DNA of 23,414 bases, from assembly GCA_018398765.1 (NCBI GenBank), contig JAHBMJ010002041.1, positions 1 to 23,414 of the forward strand, in the 5' to 3' direction. The notes under the pieces were generated by a model. It made no database searches and was not told the DNA's origin. It saw nothing but the letters and a program-made list of their open reading frames with translations. A program made the translations under genes and the position numbers. Source of the stretch: Chromera velia (lineage: Eukaryota; Sar; Chromeraceae). The first letter of the stretch is position 1; the number at the start of each line of letters is the position of its first letter. Shown here piece by piece: positions 1,008-23,040 of the stretch.

Positions 1008-5411
<4,404 letters not shown>

Positions 5412-6184: not shown

Positions 6185-6507
6185 ATATAAGCCCCTGCCC
6201 TTGAATATTGGACGCACGTTTTGAGACCTCTCTGTGGTCAACTTTGCCACGGCGCACCACCCACCCGCCCCTCATTGTCCATGTATGTAACTTGTAAAAT
6301 ACATTTATTTTTGCGATTTTTCGCGCACACCGCGGGCGTGACAAAACCCTTTATAGGGCAAAAACAATAGGGGATCTACCTTAGCGCGACCATTTTTTAA
6401 AATTAAAAAAATGAAAAAAAGAAAATAAAATGAATTCTAATACAATAAGTGATAATACAAAGCCAAGCCAAATCGTGCGTCCAATATTCAAGGGCAGGAG
6501 CTTATAT
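6185..6507. repeat. 34-bp inverted repeat pair enclosing 255 bp (MITE-like or foldback element)
   Basis: The left arm 6185-6218 and right arm 6474-6507 are reverse complements over 34 bases with one mismatch (C/T at the eighth base from the outer end). Outer ends read ATATAAG and CTTATAT; inner ends read CGCACG and CGTGCG. The enclosed DNA has no open frame of note. I see no clear target-site duplication. The left outer end also resembles a TATA box (TATATAAG), so a paired promoter element cannot be excluded. Confidence 0.7.
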
Positions 6508-6918
6508 TTCGATCTGTATATATATATATCTCGAAAATGCAGACCTTTGTATTAATATAATCGAATCGATCCATATGGAAGACTCATATGAAGTGCAGCA
6601 AGCTCTGCATATATGGCTTCACATACAACCATTTGAAAGCCAGTCAGTCAACACAAGCAGCGACCCAGTCATTTCCTCAACCTTAAAAGCAGCCGTCTGT
6701 CGAAGGGAAGGAAGGTCGAAAGAGAAAACCTGTGCGTTTCCGTCTTTCCTGCCGCCGCTTGAGCGAAGGACAGAAGGCGTCGACTCCATTCTGCATCCGT
6801 CCTCGTGAGGGACACGCAGAGCTGGAGATTGAGTGGGTAAGCAGAGGACAGTGAGAGAGAAAGGGGCAGAGAAGGGCGAGAGCTTCTGTCTGACTGCCTG
6901 TATCTGAAGAAGAAGAAG

Positions 6919-8003
6919 ATGGCAGGGGTCTGGGGAGATGAGGATCCTCTGCCTCCTCCGGTAGAGGCGGGGGAGGTCCCAACTCCAGAGCTCTTGGACG
7001 AAGAGGGAGGGGGCGGAGAGATGGGCGACGTGGACGCCCCCCCCCCCTCTGTGCGGAGAGTCTCGAGAGATCTGTCTGGCACTGCTGGACACACTTCGGA
7101 CACCAGCAGCAGCAGTACCTCTCGGGGGTGTCCGTTCGGTCACCGAGCAGGTATGCAGGCTGGCCTGATTTGTGGGGGGAAAGAGTACATATGCTGTGCT
7201 GTGCAGTTTCAGGTGGATGGAGGTGGGTCACCAACCCGCAGCCTGAGAGCACAGGCTTGAAAGAGAAATGACTTCTGCATGCATGCTTTCATACACATCT
7301 GAATTGAACTGCATGCTTTTCTTTATGCTGCTATTTGAGTCCTTCTGTGTGACTCTTTTGCTGGAATGATGTTTGCGGCTGTTCTTTTCGTGCCTCATTT
7401 CTGTTTTTCTTCCCCTCTTGACTCTCTTCTGGCACCTCCTGTGAGTCTCCGACTGATTCAACCCATCCATGTACATACAAGCCCCTGCATGCATGCGCCT
7501 GATTGATTGCAGCGGAGGATGCTGACAGTACAGGGGACGACCAGAGCGTCCCTTTGTGCCCTTTCGGCTTTGATGAGGGCAACCCACTCCTTCCGTTCAC
7601 AAGGAGGGGAGGCAGAAGGGGGGACAGGGGAAGGGAGAGGGAAAGGGAGAGGCAGCAGAGACTGCCCACAGTGTCAGAGGAGGGGGGATCAATAGGAGTG
7701 CCTGATAGAGAGGAGTTTCCTTCAGCAGCTTCCAGGCAGCAACCCGAAACTTTGAGGGAGGAGTTGCACACAGCGCCTCCAGGGGGGGATGGTTCAGAGG
7801 AAAGCAGTGGGAGTGACGGAGGTCGGAGGTACGGGGGCCTGATGCTCCCGGACCCATCTGAGGAAGCCGGGGGGTTGGGATTTCCCTCCTCCCCAGCAAT
7901 AGGCGACGGTGAGAACGTATCAGTGGATTTGGAGAATGAATTAGAGGGCCAACTCGCAAGAGACGAGTCTGCACACCTGGCAGAAGCACTGGATAGAGTG
8001 CTG
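6919..8003 (+). other. Channel N-terminus: acidic disordered region with twin CPFG motifs
   Basis: Exons 1-2 encode residues 1-241, rich in Glu, Asp, Gly, Pro and Ser, with no globular pattern until about residue 225. Two CPFG motifs lie at residues 71-74 and 93-96, on either side of the exon 1/2 junction; the first is followed by His. Cys-Pro dipeptides of this CPF type occur in heme regulatory motifs, for example in heme oxygenase-2. An Arg/Glu-rich run lies near residue 118. The intron between the two exons (7151-7512) contains two TGCATGCATGC words. Confidence 0.6.
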
Positions 8004-11000
8004 GTCAGTAAAGTAAAGTAGAGTTTATAAAGCTCACTTGAGAGACAAATTCAAACTCGGTGTGGAGTAGAGCAGGGCCCAGGACAAGGCGCAAGTGGAG
8101 AAGGAAAGCAACAAGCAAGGGTTCATGTTTGAGCTTTTGCACCTGTCCAGTTATGGCTCTTGCCTCCCTTCCGTGCACCCTTTTTGCTTTTCGCATGCAT
8201 TGGACCTCCTCTTTCAATTGTGAAATCCCACTTTTCACAGTCGCAGTTCCTTGCTCCGTTCCCGATAATCCAATCAAATAGAGCGATCAGGCAAGGTAGT
8301 TGCTGCGGTACCATCTCACTAGTGTTGCGTTTCCAAGCAACCACAATGGGTTTGTTTGAGTTGATTGGATTTGTGTTGTATTTGTCGGATGTATCTGATT
8401 GTTGGTAGTTGCAGCAAAGTTGGACTCGGGTCGTTCGAAGTGGAACGAAATCGGAATCCATCGGTACCCTGATTGTCAGTCTCTCTCTTCTGTGCATGGA
8501 TTAATCCATTTAGATAATTCAATCAATCTATTGCCGAGGAGAACCAATGAATCCGCGCACATGCACAATGATTCTTTCCTTGCATGCACATGTCTGCCTC
8601 TCTCTCTCTCTCGCGCGCGCTCCTGCCCACAAGTATCGGGTATCTTTCTGTCCTGTCCTCTGCCATCTATGTCTGTCTGTATCCTGCCCTTCCCTTTTCC
8701 TGTGCTTCTCGCAACCCGCGTCCCCTTGCTTCCCTACACCATTATATGTCGTGATGTGATGAAATGACGGCTGCATGGATGGATGGATGGATGGATGGGT
8801 TCATGCAGTACGACAACATCGCCCGATTGGCCCCCCCGATCGCGAGTCGGTGGACGAAGGGGAGGCACCAGCTGGCGATGTCCTTCGAGAGTATGATCAC
8901 CGCAATGGTGGCATACGCAAACGACAGGAGCTCCCTCGAGGCTCAGACCAAATACCTCTGCATCAGACACGTCAGTCAATTAATTCATCAAATGGAGGGA
9001 GGGCCCGCATCTGAGCGGACAATTAAGCGTGCACATGCACTCTCTTCGTAGCAGCACCGTCTTTCTTTCATAATGCAGACATGTGCTTCCACTTCAGTTC
9101 GGAGAACTACTCAGGAAGAGGCATGCAGTCTTTTTTGCTCACCTTTTTTTCGTCTCTTGGAATCTATCCATCCTTTTCTCTTCTCTGATGGACCGGGTCG
9201 ACATGAGTCGGGTTTTCTTCGTAATCGTTTTCTTTTCTTGTTCTCTTCTTTCTGCAATCTGGTTGCCTCGTTATCTCTGAGTGGCTGCGAGTGTGCCCAT
9301 GCAGAAAGTGACAGACCTCAACATCATCTGATCTCGCTTTTGCTGCCCGTAAAGCTATTTTTTATTGTCAGTCCCCCACTGCCCTGTGTCTAGGTGCCTT
9401 GACGAGTTCCCTCTACCTTCCTTGACCTGTTCCGTTCCTTTCACTGAATATTCACTCAGAGAAGAGTCTTTGTTTGAATCTTGCAGGCCCACTACATCGG
9501 GAAGACAGAGATCATGCCGGTGATGCAGCAGGCGCTCATCTCCTCCCTCGAGCAGATGCTGGGGGAGGAGTGGAACCTGGACCTCGAGACCAACTGGGTG
9601 AAGCTATGGGACATCGCTTCAGACATCATGAACAAAAGCGTGTCCGTGGCCCAGAAAAGAATGGCACAGGTCTTCCAAGAATGGGCTCTGGTGACGGATC
9701 AGCTCGGGACAGCGGCCTTCACTGCGAAGCTGCAGGCCAACCTTGTGACTCAGATGATGCTCCATGCGGGGGGCTCCAATCATGCAGCAGGGGGGATGGT
9801 GACTAAGCAGGGGTTGGCAGAAGATCTTTCCGACCTTCTTGGGGAGGCTGTGGAGCAATTGAAAGACGTGGAGCGTCTCAGGGTGAGTGGGCGGTCCTTG
9901 CGTGCTTGCTGGTCTGGTGCAGTCTAGTTTTGTGTTGAGTATGGCTCTGTGTCTCTGGCGGTGTGTAACTTGTTTTGTCCTGTCTGTCTGTCTGTCTGTC
10001 TGTCTGTCTCACATATGGTTTTGTGTGTCTGGGTGAGGTTTCATAGAGAAGCTTGGATTTCCCTACTTTATTCTTTTGATGGCTTGGGTGTTTGACTGCA
10101 GGGGAGTCCCAACAGTTTGGGTCTGGACCTGAAGTCTCTCTTCTCCCGGTTCGGGTCTGTGCCGGATCTTGTCAAGGTCAGTCGCGTTTATCAAGGAAAT
10201 CGTCCTTTCAAACAAAACATGGTTGTAATGTAACCTCAAAGATCATTACTGACACACAGCAAAAGCAAGATCACGAAAGACCACAGTCGCAGTAGTGGGA
10301 AGAAAACGCAGAGTTCCTGGTGGCTGGTTTGGGGGTTGAGAGCGATAAGGAGGGGAACGAAATAGACAGGCTGCGCAGAGGTGCCGTGCTTTTTACTCAC
10401 CTTGACACTTTTTCAGAGCAAGAGCCTTTTCAGGGCAAAGTGTTGATAGTTTGTCGTGCGACTTTTCTTCTGCTTGCAGGTCGGGACGGTGGTCATTCAG
10501 ACCATTCGTGAGGTGACCTCTCAGAATTGGTCTCCCGTCTCTGAGGATGCATGGAACTGGATCTGGGGTCTTATTGTGGAGGTACGTCGGTGTTGTTTTT
10601 CTCTCTGCCGCTCTCTCTGTCTGTCTCTCTGCTGGAAGGAAGAGAGCGAGAAACAAGATTGTTCGATGGAGCAGGATGCAGGAACAAGTGATGCGGGTGT
10701 GATTGCTTTGTGTCTTTTTCGAATCGCTTTTCTGAGTGGCAAAGTCCGTCTCTTCCCTTCCCGGACAGCAGTGCAAATACAGTCGTGGCCTTTCACGAAA
10801 ATTGTACTGCCGGCAGGAAGAGATAACGGAAAGATGCTTGCAGTTTTTCACTGTTCGTGCAAAGATTGGCTTTTAAAACTACGCCACTGGTTTTGGATGT
10901 TTGCAGGAAAACAGCAGGAAGATGAAGCCAGGAGACAAGAACGTCTTTATCGCTTCTGTCAATTTCCTCCAGAGAAAGGTCGAGGTGGAGCTGGCAATGG

Positions 11001-14000
11001 GGAAGGGCGGGAGCAACGAGAGTCTTGACTTCTTCGTTGAGGAGGGAGGGGGGTCAGACAAACGAAAAGGGGGTGCAGGGAACTCAACAGGGGGGGGAGG
11101 AGCCAGCTCGTCGGCGGACCACGAAGACTTGAGGGGACGCCGAAAGAGCGCAGCAAGCATGGGAGGGGACGAATTTATAGTCAGTCCGTCGGAGTTTGAG
11201 AGAAAAAGAAGTAGGTAATCGGAGGGTCTTGTCTTTGACTTTTGAAAGAAAAGACTGAGAAAGAGTGAACAAGATTTCCTTCCGTATGTTTGTCTGTATG
11301 GGTGTCTATGCTCCCGTCGTTATCCATCTCTGAGTGTAGCGGCATGTGTTATGTGTGCGACGTTGCGACGCACGCATGCGTGTACCGTCTGCGTATACGC
11401 AACTGCTGAGAGTCTGCGGAGATCCCAGTGGTCTGCAATCCTGGCGCTGGTGACAAAGCGAACAGTGTTTTGCCTAGCTCCTCTGTGTGAATCTGTTTGT
11501 CCCTTTCCTCCCTAATGTCCGATCGATCCTCCTTTTGCTTTTGGTGGCTGTCTGTTTGCAGGAAGAGAGCGATGCAGGATACCAAGCCGGCAAACGGCGG
11601 AGCATCTTGAACGTATTTTCTCAAATGAGACGCAAGAGCAGCGTAGGACTCTCCAAGGTGTTTGGAAAGGTCGGTCCTCCCTCTGTTCGTTTACCTCGTA
11701 CCGGGTGACTTTGAAAGATGATTTGAAAGGAAGGTGTGCATTACGTGGCAACAGACGCGTGGCTCTGCATGACGCGTCCATGCCCTCTCCATGCCTTCCT
11801 TCATCACTGATCAATGAGAAAGTGGGAACTCTGTGAAAGCATTGGACTGCTACTCTATCGACATGAATTTCTTCATCGTGCTTGGCATTTGCAGACGAAA
11901 ACGGTGGAGACTTTGCGGACAGACCAGGACAAATCTGGAGTGGATGACCAGTCGGAGAGGGACCGGGCGATTCGAACTCGGGAGATTGAGGAGAGACAGA
12001 GAAAGGGAATATACGTCAAAAGCAGAGTCTCATATGTCAGTCAGAGGGACACATAGAGAGATAGAGAGACCGACGAGCCGACAGACAGACAGACAGACAA
12101 ACAAACAAACAGACAGAGACACGCATAGTCTACGGAAAGACGCTCTCAATGCGCCTTCTTTGAAATTTCTCTCTCGGTCAACTTTGCCACTCCAATTGAA
12201 CGTCTCACTCTTGTTCCCTCTTTCTCGCGACTCTCACCGCCACTCATAAGTGCAGGCAACACATATTAATAGAACCAGCAAGAATCTATCGATAGAATGA
12301 CCAGCTCTCTGTTCTTTCGTTTCAATCTGTTCTCTGTGCAGGAAATCGGACTTCGGTTTTTTGGGAATCTGTTCCGTCGCGCCCCCTCTTTTCGGAGGAT
12401 TTTCATTCGAACCCTTGAGACTTACGCCAAGCTGATGGAACAAATTTTGGGGTACATGCTCGATCATGTGGACAACCCGAGCTTGATGTTTGCCTCTGAT
12501 TCGAATAAGGTCGGTGGGCCTGTACACCGATTCTTTTTTTTTTCCATGTTTGGATTATTGCCTTCTCAGTGAAAATCGGTTTTTTCCCCATGCTTTTCCG
12601 ATCACGTTCCGGAGTCACCGGAGTCTTCTTCTTGGGTGTGGGGGAAAAGAGAAAAGAAGAAGAGAAAAGTCAGACGCAGGCACTGACAGGAAGAGAGACA
12701 GAGACCTCATTGCACCCCAGTGATCGATGCCGTCCCTTCGTATGTGTTGTTGGTCTGTCCTTGCAGGAACTTGCAATCCGGCACATTCGGTTCGGCGTGC
12801 GTCCAGCAGATGTGCCCGTGTTTGGCCAGGTCTTCCTGGACACTCTCGCGTCGATCGGAGGGATGAACTGGAGTGCAGATTACACCCGCGTGTGGTCACT
12901 CTTCTGGCACTGCGTCAGTCACTCTCTTCATTTGTTTTTCTGTACTCTTCTTTGACGACATCTACTTGAATTCATCCGCTCATTCGACTGTCTTCCCCGA
13001 ATTGATGGACATACTGTCACTTCTCTCCCTGCACACCTCCCCCTGAAAACTCTTCCCCGAATGCCTGGCTGACTGCAGGTCTCTTCGGCGTTTTGCGACG
13101 TGATCAAGGCAGGGAACCACCCGGTGACCCGTGCCTTGATTCTGGGTGAGGAGGAGGAGCTCAGGCTTGCACTCTCAGAGGCCCCCCGCTCTGTGCGCAT
13201 CAAGTGGGCCTGTCAGGTGGATGTGATGGGAAACCTGAGGTCCCCTCTATACTGGTCAGTCAGTCCGTCAGTCAGTCCGTCAGTCAGCACGGGTTACAAT
13301 GAAGTCAGACAGTCTGCACACAGTAAGCTGTGTTCTTCAACTCTGCCAAGGGAAAGAAGGTGCGGTATTCTTCTCTTGCGAGTGTGGACTTCTTCTCGTG
13401 CATGTGCGTCACTTTTTGTTTCCTTCTTCTATGCTACACACACATGCATGCAGGGCAATTGAAGAGGGAAAGATCCAGATGGCCCGGCTGATCCTGACGG
13501 ACACCCTGGCCATCCGGGCCGATAGATCGGGGTACTACTACGGCATGAAGGACTTGTGGGAGCACCACCCTGACTTGGTGGACGTCCTGTGCAGCCAGGC
13601 GGGGAGTCTGATTCCAACAATGCTGGATGGACACATGTGGTGCTCTGATCAGGTTGTGGGGGGAAGGAGGAAGGTTAGTTGATTGATGCATGATGATGTG
13701 GGGAGAGAACTCTGACCATTTAATTGTGAGGGAAAAGAAGACGCTTCCACTCTTTCATCATCTCCTTGCAAGAGACCGCTAGTTTTCTCTCTTCCGCCGT
13801 GTATGTATGTATGTGTTACAGTTTTGTCACTCCATTTTCCGGGGTAGCTCAGTACGTTTGTTGCTGCATGCACCTTGAGGGACCGCCTTCCTTCTATCCC
13901 TTCGGATCGAAAGTAAATTTGCAACTCTTGTATGACTCATGTTTGCTACCAGAGACCCATATCAGTTTGTGCTAGGAAGAGAGTGCGAGGTATTCGGAAA

Positions 14001-17000
14001 TGTATTGCGTCAATCCACTTGCGTGCAGGTGAACTTCTACATCAGGGAGCTGTGGGGAGACCCTAGGCTGAAAAGTTCGGGTGAGAACGTGTTTGAGACA
14101 GTCCTCGCAAAGCTAGTGGATCACGGGAACCCCTCGATCTTCCTTCATCCTGTCATCGAGTACATCCTGGAGGCAAAGTGGAAGCTCTTTGCGAAGAGAC
14201 GGTACGTCAGTTGGGAGGAAAGAAGGGAAGAATCGAGGGGGGAGAGCACCTGAAAACGAGGGAGTCAAGCAAGCAACAGAAAAAGAGACAAACAGCTTTC
14301 ATCGGAGCGAAGGGGAAGAATGGCCACTAGCTGCTGCTGAAGGAGAATCAATGAAAAGAGCCAAATGCATAAGGATCCTTCCGAGAATGTGCCACAGATA
14401 CACAAAAAAGGAGTAAATTTTGGGAGAGCGATACAAGAAGAGGGAGTACCGTGAAGAGCTGAGAGGGTCTCGAATCGGTCCGTGATAAAAGGCACAACGG
14501 CTTTCAAACCTAAGTGCGTGGGTTGGGTGCAATACTCTGTATCAGGAGAATTTTACGAACATGTCGTAACTCTCTGGATTTTCTTCCTTCTGTTTTGTTC
14601 CCATCCCTTTGTGGGGGCAGGTTCTTGGCCCAACAGTCCGTGTACATTCTTCAACTTGCCCTCTGGATGTTCGGATACGTCGGCATTCCTGAAGTCACCA
14701 TGGCGGCCTTCGCGTTCCGTGCGGGATCGTGGCTGTTGTCGATTCTGTACTCGGGAGCGCACATCTGGATCTCGATGAAGCAACTGATGTCGGGGGCAAC
14801 CACACACGACTTCTTCGGACACAAGACCAGATTCCCCGTCCCTCACCACCTGTCTGACAACTCGTTCAACCCTCTCCGACTGATGGTCTCTGCTCTCCTC
14901 CTGGCTGCAGCAGGACTCGAACTCACGGAAGGGGGGCTGAACGCGCTTCAACAAGAAATTCCATACTATGTGTCAGTCTGCATGGACTGTGTCTCAGTGT
15001 ACTTTTCATAGTTTTGGAGAAGAATTTTCTTTATCATTCTGAAGAAACTCTTTCCTTTGCGGGTCTGCTGGAGGAGAAGCACTCAACGTCTGTATGCAGG
15101 CAGAAAGGAAAAAATGTTGGGGGTTCCCAATTTCGATTGCTTTTATCACTTTCGGATCCACTGATTCCCTCTACGAAACGCCTTCTCTTTCCAGTGCATC
15201 CCTCTATGCTCTCTTCGTTTTTCTCCTTCCCCCATCAGTGTCTGTCTGTCTGTGTGTGTGTACTGCCCTCCATCATGTGCCCACATGATGTGAATGCCTG
15301 CCTGCAGGTACCGTAATGGAGGAGAGCTTGTGGACAACCTGGGCGGCTCGGATCCCTGGGTCGTGCTCTCTGCACTCACGGGCATTCTGCTGTGGATGCT
15401 CGCCGTGCAGGTGGGTGGGTGGGTGGGTTGGAGAGGGGAGGGGGGGAGGGAGGGAAGACGTTAGAGAAGGGGAGAAAAAAGATACTTTCATCCATCCTGT
15501 TTTCCGATCTCCAGACCTACCTTTCGTCTGTCTCTCTTCTGCATTTGATGCAAATAGAAAGACCCACGGAGGAAGGCAGGTGAGAGGGCTGAAAGAAGGA
15601 AGAAAATGCTCTTCCTCTCCCCACATTTCCTCTCTCCCTGCAGGCCTGTATGGCCTTCAACGCCCTCGCTGCGTTCTATGCCGCTATCGGGAATCTGATT
15701 GGAGACATCGCTAAGTTCCTCATTGTCATGGTCAGTCAGTCACGCTTTCTTTCTGTCGTCTCGGGGTTCAGCTGCCCTGCCGTGCTGCAGGCTGAACAAT
15801 CAAATGCTTTGAGGTGGGGAGCATAGGAGAGAAATGGGGCAGGCGCCGTGGGATATCCAGAGAGAGGAGAGCAAATGCAGTGGTTAGAAAAACAGTGCTT
15901 AATGAACCCCGCGGTCTTTGTATGCTTTCACAGGTATTTGTACATTCGTATGTGCACATCCGTGCATGAGTTGGCGTGCAGGTGGGAATGGTGATGGCCT
16001 TCAACTGTGCGACGAATCTGATAGCAGCCCACCTGTTGGAGTTTTCCAATCTGGGTAGGGGGTTCATCACGATCTACGCCCTGATGCTGGGTATTTGGTT
16101 CCCTGACTTTGAGGGGAGGTGCGTCGGCTGCTGCATGGGGGGGGAACTTGCCTCTCCTCTCTTGGATGCAATGCCATTTTCTATGCCGCTGCATGATTGT
16201 CCGTCCGTACGCCATCCACATGGCTCTTGAAACTTCGTGGCTTTCCTGTTTCTTTCTCTGGCCGAGACGGAAAGGCTTTTTTCAAGTTTCTGGTTCTTGC
16301 CTTTGGAACCTTTCGCCTATCTGCACTTTTTGTCTGGTCTGCGCTCCCCCGGGACCGTTTCTCCTTGTGTTTGTGCAGGCACAACGACATTTTCCTCCAC
16401 TGTCTTTTCATCACCTTCGCAACCATCGCGATGCTGATCTTGCTGAATCTGCTCATTGCCCAGGTTGGCAGACTGTGACTGCTTGACTGACTGCATCAAC
16501 AAAGACTTGATTTGATTGGGGGGAAAACCAGGGCAGGAAGGAGTTACTGAGTGTCTGTCTTTGTTCATCCATGTGCGGCTCTTTTTTGTCAAAAGTGCCC
16601 AAACACGTTGTCAATCGTCTTGCAGCAATGTCATTCGAGCTGCGTCGCCGTACGCAAGTGAGTGAGTGAGTGTGTTCGACCCCTTCCCCTCCTCTCCCGT
16701 GTGTGCAGCTAGCGTCCTCTTACGCGAACCAGCTGACCGTGATGGCAGGGCTTGCGAAGATGGCGAGAGCACAGCAGGTGATTGAGATAGAGGCCCAGTT
16801 GTCTCTGGACAGAAGGGTCCAGCTGGCTGATGGTCTGAAGTTCGACCAGCCCCTGACGTTCTCCTCCAAGACGGACGTGGGACCTCCAGGGGGTGTACAG
16901 GTGATGATGGGCTCCGACTTCCTTCCTCCGGGGCTGGACAAACTCGGTAACGGGACGGCAGACAGGATGGAGAGGCACATTCACGAAGTCAATGCGGGAC

Positions 17001-18302
17001 CTCTGGCACCCTGGCCGCATGAAATGGGCGAGGGAGACCAGAGGGACTTTGAGCAGGCGGTCCGTCAACTCTCTCTAAAGTTTTCTTCTTTTAGTGCATG
17101 AAGCTATGCACGATCGATCTGCGTAGTTCCACGGACTTTCCTTCTCGGTGGATACAAGTGGCGTGTCGTTGAGTATGAAAAAGACATCATTGGATAAAGG
17201 AATAGAATTCAAATTGTGCGTGAAAAAACGTGAAAAAACGATTAGGCAGTTGATCGACGGCGTGGTTTGTGCAGGCACAATGTCCCACCCAGCCTGAAGA
17301 AAGGGAGAGAACATAGAAGGGAAGATGCACCGTCTGGCCGACTTACTTATTTTGTCTTTCCCCTCAGGAGCTATTAAAAGGGCTGCAGGTCTCAAAAACG
17401 TCCCTGTACTCACTTTCATGGGACACATTTCTTCTTCTTCTTTGTGTTGCTCCTGTTTCTCCTCTCAGGTTGAAAAGCAGTTGAAGACCTTGGTTGTAAA
17501 CAGTCAAAAGATCTTGAAGGGGGTCAGTTGAATCAAGTGGCAGTCAGACTGTCACACTGTGAGTGGTACGGGAGTTCTGTTGAGTGAGTGTGGAATTCAA
17601 AAATTGAGATGGATGATTAGTTTATTTGATGCTTCATCATCATTCAATGCGTGCCCCCCAACTTTGACTTGAGATTGCGCACTGCACTTTCTGCTTCCGT
17701 TGTTCTTTCCATCAAACTCCTTCTTGTTCCTCTTCTCATGAACTCGGGGGCTGTTTGGGTACACGCCGAGCGTCTCATGAACTCGGGGGCTGTTTGGTTT
17801 GGGTACACGCCGAGCGAGCGTCTCAGGAAGGACACACGCTACGGCAATTACGCATGGAGGGCGTTTGTCAATTTGCGTCTCTGTTCAACCATCTGCATCT
17901 GCTATGCAAGACAAACGAAGAGTGCTCGACTTCATGTGCATCGTGTCTGTGTCTCTCTGCATCTCTCTGTGCAGCTGAAGAGAGGAGAGACGCGCAAGAG
18001 GGCTGCCTCGGATGCCTCTCACTGTCAGTCCTCTGAAATTTTTCACTTCCCTTTATTTGTCATTTCTGGAAGCAAAAGACGGGATTGTTTTGGACCGCTA
18101 CCCCTTGCCCGGTCACTGCGGGCGCGCGTCCAACTAGCTGCTCACTGCATGCATGCGTGTCTCCGTGAAAAAGTCCGTCCTCCTTCTCATCATCCTCTTC
18201 ACCATCAGGAGTCCAATCAATCAATCAATCCCCTCTTTTTCCTTTTCTTGCGTTTGATTGAATGCAGCTGTGGTGTCCGGAAGGTCGGGCACCAACCTGT
18301 AA
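6919..18302 (+). CDS. Tri-globin, ankyrin-like, TRP-family cation channel (23 exons)
   Basis: Exons: 6919-7150, 7513-8003, 8809-8970, 9487-9882, 10102-10176, 10480-10581, 10907-11179, 11562-11669, 11895-12035, 12342-12509, 12767-12913, 13079-13254, 13454-13673, 14029-14201, 14621-14971, 15308-15410, 15644-15730, 15982-16118, 16379-16463, 16709-17059, 17469-17522, 17975-18023, 18268-18302. They sum to 4116 nt, or 1371 residues plus TAA, with all phases compatible. Domains: acidic disordered region 1-225; globin 1 about 226-347 (candidate F8 His H295); globin-like 2 about 352-486 (no F8 His); linker 487-613; globin 3 about 650-765 (H722); ankyrin-like 766-897; pre-S1 and S1-S6 about 925-1209; cytosolic tail 1210-1371. 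The likely role is a membrane cation channel gated by heme ligand or redox state. The start at 6919 has an AAGATGG context and is the first ATG of its frame. Intron 2 could instead use GTAAAG at 8013, adding three residues. The last three exons are less certain. Confidence 0.82.
8004..8808 (+). other. Intron 2 of the channel gene (longest intron)
   Basis: It runs from GTCAGT to GCAG, 805 bp, and ends in a (GGAT)n tract at 8775-8798 directly before the acceptor. A 124-codon minus-strand frame at 8123-8497 has no recognisable domain and is taken as chance. Confidence 0.75.
8809..9642 (+). other. Globin domain 1 of the channel (exon 3 and first part of exon 4)
   Basis: Residues about 226-347 follow the bacterial/neuroglobin-type pattern. 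A B-C segment (YDNIARLAPPI) is followed by an E helix with Leu at the E11 position. Next comes LCIRH, whose His (H295) fits the proximal F8 ligand, then a YIGKTE turn. A G helix reading VMQQALISSLEQMLGEEW and an H helix with a conserved Trp (NWVKLWDI) complete it. Spacing from the His to the G-helix Val is 12 residues, the same as in globin 3. The E7 position seems to be Gly rather than His or Gln, tentatively. The intron falls directly after the F8 His codon. Confidence 0.8.
9643..10581 (+). other. Globin-like domain 2 of the channel, proximal His absent
   Basis: Residues about 352-486 over exons 4-6. An A helix with a conserved Trp (VFQEWALVTDQLG) is followed by a long loop, an E-like helix (LSDLLGEAVEQL), an F region and a clear G-H unit. 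The G-H unit has VVIQTIREVTSQNWSPVSED and then AWNWIWGLIVE. In the F region the RH of globins 1 and 3 is replaced by RF or SLF (F441 or F444), and no His occurs anywhere in exon 5. The FG turn is about three residues shorter. This domain therefore probably does not hold heme through a standard proximal His and may be structural. Confidence 0.65.
9979..10010 (+). repeat. (TGTC)n microsatellite in channel intron 4
   Basis: About eight tandem TGTC units lie between the GTGAGT donor at 9883 and the GCAG acceptor at 10101. Confidence 0.95.
10907..11669 (+). other. Linker between globins 2 and 3 with basophilic kinase-type sites
   Basis: Exons 7-8 encode residues 487-613. After a short helical continuation of globin 2, the sequence becomes Gly/Ser/charged low complexity. 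It carries RRKS at 564-567, KRRS at 588-591 and RRKS at 600-603, matching the R-R-x-S or R-x-S consensus of PKA/PKG-like kinases. The intron between the exons starts with GTCAGT at 11180. A downstream GTAGGT could extend exon 7, but its phase gives a poorer protein. Confidence 0.7.
12080..12116 (+). repeat. (ACAG)n/(ACAA)n microsatellite in channel intron 9
   Basis: Tandem ACAG units, then ACAA units, then ACAG again, within the intron 12036-12341. Confidence 0.9.
12342..12913 (+). other. Globin domain 3 of the channel (exons 10-11)
   Basis: This is the clearest of the three globins, residues about 650-765. FFGNLFRRAPSFRRIF matches the B-C/CD segment (LFE-x-xP-x-xR-x-xF). The E helix has KLMEQILGYML, and the next segment reads LDHVDNPSL. 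Then ELAIRHIRFGVRPADVPVFG contains the proximal His candidate H722 and the family's GV-x-P turn. The G helix (VFLDTLASIGGMNW) and H helix with Trp (RVWSLFW) follow. The E7 position seems to be Thr, tentatively. The intron lies just before the F helix, unlike globin 1, where it falls right after the F8 codon. Confidence 0.85.
13079..13673 (+). other. Degenerate ankyrin-type region of the channel (exons 12-13)
   Basis: Residues 766-897 lie between globin 3 and the membrane domain, where TRPA, TRPC and TRPV proteins carry ankyrin repeats. The best single unit is GNLRSPLYWAIEEGKIQMAR, followed by LILTD (about 816-840), which has the ankyrin helix-turn-helix spacing. Flanking sequence (NHPVTRALILGEEEELRLAL, then later HHPDLVDVLCSQAG) looks like diverged copies. 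The phase 2 junction between exons 12 and 13 makes the Trp of LYW. Confidence 0.6.
13255..13288 (+). repeat. Tandem GTCAGTC/GTCC array at the intron 12 donor
   Basis: The donor GTCAGT at 13255 is the first of several near-identical GTCAGTC units spaced by 4-12 bases. Other introns start with a shorter form of the same duplication (GTCAGTCAGT at 15731). Confidence 0.9.
14029..16463 (+). other. TRP-family six-helix channel domain (exons 14-19)
   Basis: Pre-S1 has the TRP signature HPVIEYILEAKWKLF (about 936-950). Hydrophobic segments: S1 956-977, S2 about 983-1007, S3 1038-1056, S4 1089-1110, S4-S5 linker about 1111-1128, S5 about 1129-1152, pore helix and filter about 1162-1180 (FITIYALMLGIWFPDFEG), and S6 1182-1209 ending in the TRP-typical ILLNLLIAQ. 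S4 carries no Arg or Lys, so no voltage sensor is evident. Exons are short (85-351 nt) and introns cut between most helices. Acidic residues D1177 and E1179 next to the filter suit a cation pore. Confidence 0.85.
16709..18302 (+). other. Channel cytosolic tail with alternative 3' ends
   Basis: Exon 20 begins with LASSYANQLTVMAGLAKMAR, an amphipathic helix directly after S6, where other channels of this family have the TRP helix. I splice 17059 (GTCCGT donor) to 17469, giving FEQAVEKQLKTLVVNSQK, a coiled-coil-like helix. Next comes 17522 (GTCAGT) to 17975 (LKRGETRKRAASDASH), then 18023 (GTCAGT) to 18268 (SVVSGRSGTNL, stop). Without the first splice, translation stops at TGA 17099-17101. Without the second, it stops at TGA 17529-17531. 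The spliced form keeps a continuous helix, which is why I prefer it; transcripts must decide. Confidence 0.5.
17734..17816 (+). repeat. 39/44-bp tandem direct duplication within channel intron 21
   Basis: Copy 1 (17734-17772) and copy 2 (17773-17816) both run from TCTCATGAACTCGGGGGCTG to ACACGCCGAGCG. Copy 2 differs only by five extra bases (a repeated GTTTG-like insert). The duplication is head-to-tail without a spacer. Confidence 0.9.
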
Positions 18303-21409: not shown

Positions 21410-21456
21410 CTCACTCACTCACTCACTCACTCATTCACTCACTCACTCACTCACTC
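21410..21456 (+). repeat. (ACTC)n microsatellite reaching into the stop codon of the oxidoreductase gene
   Basis: Tandem ACTC units with one ATTC variant. Read on the minus strand this is (GAGT)n, and its first unit supplies the TGA stop of the gene at 21453-21451. Confidence 0.95.
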
Positions 21457-22599
21457 AAACTCCAGCACAAGCTTCCCGACAGAGTTCCCAGACTCCAGCA
21501 CGTCGTGGGCGCTCCTCGCTTCTGGGGCCGGGAAGACTCTCACAGGGGGCGTTTTCAACTTCCCTTCGTTGGCTAGCTTGAGTATGTTCTCAAATCGCGC
21601 AACGAACTTGTGAACCTCAAAATCGAACAGAAACGACAGATTGAATGCCATCACACTCCGGTTGCTTGCTGTCATATCCAATGGGTTAAAAGCGGGGGTC
21701 CTCAAGTAGTTGTACGCAAGGTACAGCCAGTACAGAACAGAACAACACGACCGAGAGGCCCAAACGGACCCCGACTTCGGCAGCATGGAATGAAATCCGT
21801 AAACAACCAAGCGACCACAGGGCCCCAAATTCTCAAAAGACCAAGACAACGTGCTCACCCCATTGGCGTCAAAAATAGCGTCATACCCCGACCGCTCCCC
21901 TGGAACAAGAGGCGCTCCTGCAGCCTCCACAGCCTCAGCCTTCCACTTGGGGTTGCCCTCTTTGTGAATCACAACGTCAGCGTTAAACGATTGGACAAGC
22001 TCTCTCTTCGACTGTCGACCAACAATTCCAACAACAAAGTGCCCCTGTGCCTTTGCCAACTGCACCAGAAACGACCCGACACCCCCCGCAGCGGAGTGCA
22101 CCAAAAGACGTTTCGAACGGTCCCGATGGTCTTTCCGGGGCCACACATCTCCCAGCTCAAGGGCATAAGCTGCCGTTAGAGCTGCTGCCGGGAGTCCTGC
22201 TGCTTCTGAAAGATTCCATCCTTTTGGAATTGAAAAAACTAAATGGGACGCAACCCGCAGTCTCGAGGCGTAGCACTTGAAGCGCGAGACGGCGAGAACC
22301 TGTTCCCCGACCGTCCGACCTGACACACCCTCCCCGACACCCACTACCTCCCCAGCAACCTCAAACCCCGGAACAATAGGGAAGCCTGTTCCATTGACCC
22401 CCTCATATTTTTTTGCCGATGCGTAGAGACCCTGTCGCACCGCCGTGTCCGCAAAGTTGACCCCCGACCGAAGGACCCTGATATCAACACACCCCTCGGG
22501 AGTGGGCCCTTCGAGTTCAGGAGGGAGAGAGGCGAGGGACTCAAATTCAAGTCGGTCACTGCCTCCAGCAGAGCGAATCACAACCTGTTTGTACGTCAT
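21451..22599 (-). CDS. Medium-chain quinone oxidoreductase-like protein, VAT-1 family
   Basis: One uninterrupted frame of 382 residues from ATG at 22599-22597, close to the length of animal VAT-1 (just under 400). The N-terminus MTYKQVVIRSAGGSDRLEFE matches the usual MDR/VAT-1 start. The GroES-like fold has GVNFADTAVRQGLY and FPIVPGFEVAGEVVGVGEGV. The Rossmann fold has the NADPH-binding AAGGVGSFLVQLAKAQG. A YDAIFDANGV strand and GRLVVYGFHSML follow, then the C-terminal NVGK-like NSVGKLVLEFE. The paired structural or catalytic Cys/His zinc ligands of alcohol dehydrogenases are absent, as in quinone oxidoreductases. Family role: NADPH-dependent reduction of quinones or enones, or membrane-associated VAT-1 functions; the exact substrate is unknown. 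The frame stays open upstream to an ATG at 22794, adding 65 residues that look unlike the family. The gene is intronless, in contrast to its neighbours. Confidence 0.88.
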   Translation of the reverse strand: MTYKQVVIRSAGGSDRLEFESLASLPPELEGPTPEGCVDIRVLRSGVNFADTAVRQGLYASAKKYEGVNGTGFPIVPGFEVAGEVVGVGEGVSGRTVGEQVLAVSRFKCYASRLRVASHLVFSIPKGWNLSEAAGLPAAALTAAYALELGDVWPRKDHRDRSKRLLVHSAAGGVGSFLVQLAKAQGHFVVGIVGRQSKRELVQSFNADVVIHKEGNPKWKAEAVEAAGAPLVPGERSGYDAIFDANGVSTLSWSFENLGPCGRLVVYGFHSMLPKSGSVWASRSCCSVLYWLYLAYNYLRTPAFNPLDMTASNRSVMAFNLSFLFDFEVHKFVARFENILKLANEGKLKTPPVRVFPAPEARSAHDVLESGNSVGKLVLEFE

Positions 22600-23040
22600 C
22601 GGCGGTACCTCCACTGCAACTGAACCAGAAGGGAGACGGATTTCCAAGGTTTGCACCTGACGTCGACACCTCACCGCTCCTGTGCACCTCAAGAAACATG
22701 AATGGGTTTCAACTGTTACGGAAAGCCAGAGGTAATGTTCGGGATAGTGAAAACCAGCTACATCAAACCTCATCATCGTGCCATGAATTGCCATGATCGT
22801 GGAATTTCATGGATAACATCACTTGCCCGTCGTGATGATATATATGTGATGATTGCATAGGATTTGCATGTAGCTATAGGTGATAGCTAGGTGCATGCCG
22901 CGGGCACGCATGCAGGCAGGCACGCGCGCAAAACGCGCTGCTTTCCGCGGGGGCGCGTCATGCATGCATGGCGCGTCGATCGAATTGAGAATGCAGGCAC
23001 CAAAAGGTTGGGGCAGCATTTTTTGAGCTGTTAACGGGGG
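22600..23040. other. Upstream flank of the oxidoreductase gene
   Basis: The flank carries the possible in-frame extension up to 22794, then noncoding DNA with many GCATGC, GCGCGC and GATGAT words. A near-perfect palindrome lies at 22954-22975: CGCG arms around TCATGCATGCATGG. This could be promoter DNA for the minus-strand gene, but no TATA or initiator element stands out. Confidence 0.45.
22954..22975. promoter_or_regulatory. CGCG-flanked TGCATGCATG palindrome upstream of the oxidoreductase gene
   Basis: CGCG (22954-22957) and CGCG (22972-22975) flank a self-complementary CATGCATGCATG core. TGCATGCA-type words are known binding motifs of apicomplexan ApiAP2 factors. A regulatory role here is inference from the motif and its position about 360 bp upstream of the start. 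Confidence 0.3.

Follow-up and report, generated by a model that had tools for sequence, protein, structure and literature searches.

The window analysed here is a 23,414-nucleotide stretch of DNA from the photosynthetic alveolate Chromera velia (contig C2033 among the 4040 contigs of the 178 Mb assembly), on which all positions of the gene are numbered. At 6919-18302 it contains a predicted gene whose product would join two globins and a globin-like module to an ankyrin-like region and an ion channel core of the transient receptor potential (TRP) type. From the domain matches and from the relatives of the gene in the same genome, the presence of these parts in one polypeptide is close to certain. 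This was also the central claim of the original prediction, which had placed all of them in one reading frame and which is borne out by a coherent frame over 23 exons, by the domain matches and by single frames in paralogs.

Globin modules

The first and third globin modules are recognised without any help from paralogs. A phmmer search of solved structures with the window's own sequence places both on 3wfw, which we take to be a Methylacidiphilum-type globin, at E-values of 1.6e-5 for globin 1 and 1.2e-10 for globin 3. Family profiles of 6 rows for globin 1 and 12 rows for globin 3 find solved F-type globins in the PDB at 3e-12 and 3e-14, respectively, and match each other at 6e-19. The Pfam Globin model is found in the whole predicted protein at an E-value of 5e-12 in two stretches. 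With a cut-off of 22 bits, it scores 33.9 bits on the segment from exons 9-12 and 26 bits (two stretches together) on the segment from exon 3 into exon 7, while the exon 4 frame alone is not called.

Alignment rows were chosen from 17 paralog loci and the window (6 rows in alignment A1, 5 in A2 and 11 in A4), and loci L024 and L025 were excluded from the globin 3 alignment, A3, as their models of the B-E region looked wrong. Residue positions were taken from ungapped alignments to Hell's Gate globin, and the helix names (B10, CD1, E7, F8 etc.) are our presumed assignments to the aligned positions. Globin 3 of the window has Phe690 at CD1, Tyr697 at E7 (codon 12423-12425) and His731 at F8 (codon 12782-12784). 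The F8 His is present in 12 of the 12 aligned rows and in 13 of 14 when the two dropped rows are counted, of which L024 (contig C132) has Ser and L025 has His. Pro at C2 is likewise found in all 12 rows, and Phe at CD1 and Tyr at E7 in 11 each. Tyr at E7 is, to our knowledge, unusual among globins, and its retention throughout the family suggests a functioning ligand pocket in globin 3. Globin 3 is likely to bind heme. Globin 1 has its F8 His at His295 (codon 8968-8970), kept in 6/6 profile rows, and Tyr242 at the B10-equivalent position, where Tyr occupies 4 of 5 rows.

Globin 2 presents a different picture. The F8 position is Phe in 5/5 rows (Phe441 in the window) and the proximal His is found in none of them, and the Pfam match is weak (E 0.18). 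Searched against the PDB, its profile has leghemoglobin at the top with an E-value of 0.057, with non-globins from 0.23 on, and a comparison of the globin 2 and globin 3 profiles gives an E-value of 2e-6 with a probability of 89% over 79 columns. This module probably binds no heme. As it has no proximal His, at most two of the globins can be heme sensors, and an arrangement of three equal heme globins was rejected.

The three globin modules of the original prediction are supported, with corrections: globins 1 and 3 match solved globins and keep the F8 His, but globin 2 carries Phe at that position and globin 1 is without the CD1 Phe. Exons 3-4 and 10-11, where the prediction had staked the globin identity, are matched in both cases, the former by phmmer and by the longer Pfam segment.

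Ankyrin-like region and channel core

The 11-row channel profile (A4) finds TRPV6 at an E-value of 1e-11 and PKD2 at 7e-10 among the solved structures of the PDB. It matches 223 distinct solved sequences at E-values up to 10, and the best 60 of these are TRPV3, TRPV5, TRPV6 and polycystin-2, together with one row labelled just Inactive. In the alignment to TRPV6 the pre-S1 KW segment, the S4-S6 stretch and the helix after S6 follow each other in the correct order, and hydropathy across the rows resolves six groups, of which S5 and S6 are the strongest and S1 and S2 the weakest. The helix after S6 has RAQ-V aligned to WRAQVV of TRPV6, with the Trp absent. The residue aligned to what we take to be the filter aspartate of TRPV6 varies among the rows and can be Phe, Asp, Glu, Thr, Arg or Lys, so that a preference for Ca2+ is not readable from the sequence.

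The six-helix TRP core with its HP...KW motif before S1 had been proposed earlier, and both the paralog profile and the six hydropathy groups agree with it. The ankyrin-type region fared less well. It is present as an ankyrin-like region, but Pfam finds one weak repeat in the window protein, below its cut-off, and with about one recognisable repeat a normal ankyrin stack ahead of the channel was rejected. The Pfam search that had been suggested as a check gave Globin on the whole protein and, above its cut-off, on the segment from exons 9-12, with Ion_trans and ankyrin below theirs.

A family of fused genes

A search of the genome with amino acids 242-1245 of the predicted protein gave 47 matches, of which 18 are the window's own exons and 29 lie on 16 other contigs. 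From these, 17 paralog stretches of up to 10 kb each were fetched, several of which end at 10 kb. At E-values up to 0.01, a probe of the ankyrin-like and pre-S1 region matched 20 contigs including that of the window, a globin 3 probe matched 15 including the flavohemoglobin contig C3421, and 12 contigs matched both. On C1929, the globin 3 probe matched over its last 26 residues alone.

Physical linkage is clearest on C2621, where one uninterrupted frame of 487 codons contains globin 3, the ankyrin-like region, the pre-S1 HP...KW motif and S1-S2. In BLASTP the frame shows 30% identity for globin 3 (2e-22) and 43% for the ankyrin-like, HP...KW and S1 part (3e-58), and searched alone against solved structures it matches 3wfw at 6e-5 (residues 129-228) and weakly an ankyrin. 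As this single frame holds both parts, the fusion of globin 3 to the channel is independent of predicted introns, and the separate globin and channel genes which could have undone the original prediction are not what this paralog shows. On C3489 one frame joins globin 1 to globin 2 and another extends from globin 2 as far as the beginning of globin 3, and on C132 globin 2 continues into globin 3 within a single frame. The junctions between globins 1 and 2, between globins 2 and 3 and between globin 3 and the channel thus each lie inside one paralog frame, which answers by analogy the weak border between exons 7 and 8 of the window gene.

Raw tblastn matches are collinear from globin 1 through the channel in L024 (C132), L026 (C3489) and L027 (C1946), the globin 1 match of C132 being weak when taken alone (0.067). 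A spliced-profile alignment scores 1263-3246 on the true strand in 16/17 loci and 254 in L030 (C3641), compared with 107-187 on the 17 opposite strands used as control. As this profile was trained on the scored loci, a test with the window protein as the only query carries more weight. Here 14/17 loci for globin 3, 15/17 for the ankyrin-like region and 13/17 for the membrane region lie above the best opposite-strand score, the excess for the membrane region in L030 being one point. Scores for globin 1 are modest (97-162 in 13/17 loci, control maximum 96), and globin 2 reaches 216-256 in L024, L026, L027 and L032 against a control of 111, with the other loci marginal. Chance or artefact as the source of the domain layout was rejected on the opposite-strand controls. 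In the stretches fetched, the layout is partial on C3641 (the locus with the score of 254), on C2536:50500-60499 with globin 1 and globin 2 only, on C1217 with the channel side only, on C1929 with the end of globin 3 only and on C1757, which has no clear membrane region. Viral and prokaryotic collections, which exclude protists, were searched with one short peptide pattern each and gave 4 and 2 pattern matches, none of them confirmed.

Individual members of the family show peculiarities of their own. L034 (C2153, minus strand) has three tandem copies of the ankyrin-like exon that score equally (3396-3560, 4351-4515 and 5184-5348), possibly alternative exons or an assembly repeat. L037 (C1929) has an in-frame stop within the conserved DGHI-CSD exon and is perhaps a young pseudogene. 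In L023 and L024 the globin exons continue into CAGTCAGT-type repeats, which are open in frame as SVSQSVSQ. The linker after globin 2 in paralogs (L024 frame 6300-7451, L026 frame 2960-3967) has a conserved W/Y-x-x-V-E, then a motif like RDIF or KDFY and then a long charged stretch, a segment resembling a stray start of globin helices A-B.

Gene model and selection

Spliced from 23 GT-AG exons, the gene gives 4143 nucleotides that translate into 1380 amino acids with a single terminal stop (Table 1). Exon borders were picked by hand with a preference for acceptors ending in GCAG, as 20 of the 22 do, and the G+C content at third positions is 0.69 in exons versus 0.48 in introns. Exons 3-19 came back with identical borders from a spliced protein-to-DNA aligner, together with one spurious 24-base exon at the start of the query; the query being the window's own protein, this is circular and checks the aligner more than the gene. 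Exons 1-2 and 21-23 are open frames alone, without paralog support.

Table 1. Parts of the predicted globin-channel gene in the window
Feature	Position	Strand	Basis
Whole predicted gene, 23 exons, 1380 amino acids and stop	6919..18302	+	Spliced translation
Exons 1-2, acidic, low-complexity N-terminus, amino acids 1-241	6919..8003	+	Open frame, without paralog support
Globin 1, exon 3 with the first part of exon 4, amino acids ~242-345	8809..9636	+	phmmer 1.6e-5, profile 3e-12
Globin-like module 2, exons 4-7, amino acids ~346-495	9637..10933	+	Weak globin match
Charged linker, exons 7-9, contains the weak exon 7/8 junction	10934..12008	+	Paralogs C132 and C3489 span the junction within single frames
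Globin 3, exons 9-12, amino acids ~661-785	12009..13111	+	Pfam, phmmer 1.2e-10, PDB profile 3e-14, residue table
Ankyrin-like/pre-channel region, amino acids ~786-940, highest paralog scores of the gene	13112..14130	+	One sub-threshold ankyrin-like repeat
Pre-S1 HP...KW motif, S1-S6 with pore loop, amino acids ~941-1218	14131..16463	+	PDB profile TRPV6/TRPV3/PKD2; Ion_trans sub-threshold; hydropathy
Exon 20, helix after S6 similar to the TRP helix, then C-terminal region	16709..17059	+	Paralog match q1220-1323, E 1e-10, in L026 (C3489); TRPV6 alignment
Exons 21-23, short C-terminal tail	17469..18302	+	Open frame

The Nei-Gojobori ratio of nonsynonymous to synonymous substitution rates (dN/dS) for globin 3 is 0.11 between L033 and L035 (123 codons) and 0.16 between L034 and L036 (122 codons), and the ankyrin-like region has values of 0.17 (L033-L037) and 0.13 (L034-L036). 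In the paralog pairs that are comparable over its whole length, globin 3 looks to be under selection. A decayed gene was rejected on the basis of the open frame and the low dN/dS in some paralog pairs, although the C1929 copy carries its in-frame stop.

Gating model and alternative explanations

The reading that is somewhat favoured here is that the window gene belongs to a family of TRP-type channels fused to globins in which globin heme acts on the channel gate, and control by gas or redox state, which has about an even chance of being right, is the best single reading. Heme binding, gating by oxygen, nitric oxide (NO), carbon monoxide (CO) or redox state, the identity of the ligand, ion selectivity and expression are all matters that we infer. 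The N-terminus, assumed to lie in the cytosol like that of TRP channels, would present globin 1, then globin 2 as a globin-like spacer without heme, and then globin 3, which directly precedes the ankyrin-like and pre-S1 region that would serve for coupling. The heme of globin 3, with His731 as proximal and Tyr697 as distal residue, and perhaps that of globin 1 too, would bind or release O2, NO or CO or change its redox state. The resulting helix shift could then pass through the ankyrin-like and pre-S1 region and the TRP-like helix after S6 to the S6 gate.

Several observations weigh against this reading, many of them from Pfam. Ion_trans stays below its cut-off of 25 bits, with 17.5 for the channel segment and 14.4 for the whole protein, and the channel identity is clear solely with the paralog profile; among family members it matches 2/11 at E-values up to 1, the best being 5.5e-6. 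The S4-S6 (pore-region) stretch by itself reaches 2e-7 in the TRPV6 match, with 8 bits of composition bias. The Globin model makes no call on globin 1 of the window taken alone, on the C2621 frame or in 4/12 globin 3 rows, and in a search of the whole genome the flavohemoglobin was its sole match, the channel-linked globins being missed altogether. As for the residues, CD1 Phe occurs in 0/5 globin 1 rows with a letter at that position, and the Ser of C132 stands where globin 3 should have its proximal His. In comparisons with L037 (C1929), of 29 codons each, the dN/dS of globin 3 is 0.51 (L033-L037) and 0.26 (L035-L037), and the remaining paralog pairs are near saturation at synonymous sites. 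The paralog gene models are our own predictions, some of them locally wrong (e.g. globin 3 of L024), and the junction of exons 7 and 8 in the window requires an atypical acceptor, either 11210|11566 or 11214|11570, which is the weak point of the gene model.

It is conceivable, if rather unlikely, that the fusion is real and the globin folds are scaffolds without heme or binders of a non-gas ligand, used for assembly or mechanical coupling. The missing proximal His of globin 2 in all five rows, the missing CD1 Phe of globin 1 and the missing F8 His in globin 3 of L024 would fit this explanation, as would the myoglobin-like domain of HemAT, which an excerpt of PMC7542364 describes as binding ethanol without involvement of heme. 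However, the conservation of the F8 His (12/12), the CD1 Phe (11/12) and the distal Tyr (11/12) in globin 3 is unlikely for a pure scaffold. A catalytic heme domain that sits beside the channel as an NO dioxygenase, a nitrite reductase or a peroxidase-like enzyme, and not as a ligand-gated sensor, is improbable: the closest solved globins are of the flavohemoglobin and Hell's Gate types, as such an enzyme would suggest, but no reductase domain appeared when the predicted protein was scanned with Pfam, and a flavohemoglobin-like gene is present separately in the genome, on C3421, where L001 contains an uninterrupted frame at 1252-2616.

Least probable of all is a pair of adjacent genes, in which a soluble protein of globins 1 and 2 would end after exon 7 at the stop codon 11216-11218 and a second gene of globin 3 and the channel would start from exon 8. 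The atypical junction and the position of this in-frame stop just past exon 7 speak for such a split, whereas the single frames of C132 and C3489 pass from globin 2 into globin 3, and globin 3 would remain fused to the channel anyway, as in the C2621 frame. For the favoured heme-to-gate coupling, a wider claim can be made with less confidence, namely that the whole family, on 20 contigs by the channel-side probe, might consist of channels gated directly by the redox state of heme or by gas bound to a globin, and would form a new sensory class. Globin 3, with its His/Tyr pocket, would be the sensor in these channels, and globin 2 would transmit the signal without heme. As part of this claim, the family would have diversified in a photosynthetic alveolate which presumably faces strong swings in oxygen.

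Relation to known systems

Globin-coupled sensors of the HemAT and DosC type carry a sensor globin of the S family N-terminal to an output domain and serve in gas sensing. The order of globin and output domain is shared with the protein described here, for which gas sensing is proposed, but its output is an ion channel, it has several globin modules, it is eukaryotic and its best globin matches are of the F type. With TRPV3, TRPV5, TRPV6 and polycystin-2 it shares the S4-S6 region, the pre-S1 KW segment and the helix after S6 in the order of TRPV6; in contrast to these channels, globins occupy the place of the ankyrin stack, the filter residues differ and Ion_trans is sub-threshold. Globins 1 and 3 have sequence similarity to Hell's Gate globin and flavohemoglobins, but globin 3 has Tyr at E7 where Hell's Gate globin has Gln, and it is fused to a channel.

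Among eukaryotic globins joined to other domains, the Caenorhabditis elegans protein with a part resembling a G-protein-coupled receptor (GPCR) is, we assume, glb-33. In an excerpt of PMC1457004, one globin of C. elegans carries at its N-terminus a part of seven helices that resembles a GPCR, and an excerpt of PMC13331133 states that, glb-33 aside, metazoans essentially lack chimeras with a globin comparable to the sensors of prokaryotes. Like the protein described here, glb-33 joins a eukaryotic globin to a membrane domain (PMC13331133, excerpt), but its membrane part is GPCR-like and without TRP motifs instead of a channel. Androglobin is likewise a large chimeric globin of eukaryotes, which PMC13331133 presents as a calpain fusion with a permuted globin, unlike the channel fusion here. 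Among the papers listed in searches of the open-access literature, none reported a globin-fused ion channel in its title or the start of its abstract.

Other features of the window and genome

On the minus strand of the window, at 21451-22806, an uninterrupted frame of 451 codons belongs to the zinc-type alcohol dehydrogenase/quinone oxidoreductase family (Pfam ADH_N and ADH_zinc_N). Elsewhere in the genome, C2034:8023-8355 has an Ion_trans match within an open frame of 2870 codons. Family searches of the genome gave 11 matches for alveolin, with a model that also matches Caulobacter in control genomes, and 58 for the light-harvesting family, and plastid PsaA/PsaB were sought without a match. 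Together with the size of the genome and its intron-rich genes, the alveolin and light-harvesting families suggest a photosynthetic alveolate.

Implications

If the gating model is true, a single protein would link a gas or the redox state of heme to the flow of ions, and this route can be tested directly. A family of globin-fused channels would add a novel type of input to those of TRP-type channels and could possibly serve as a tool under the control of a gas.

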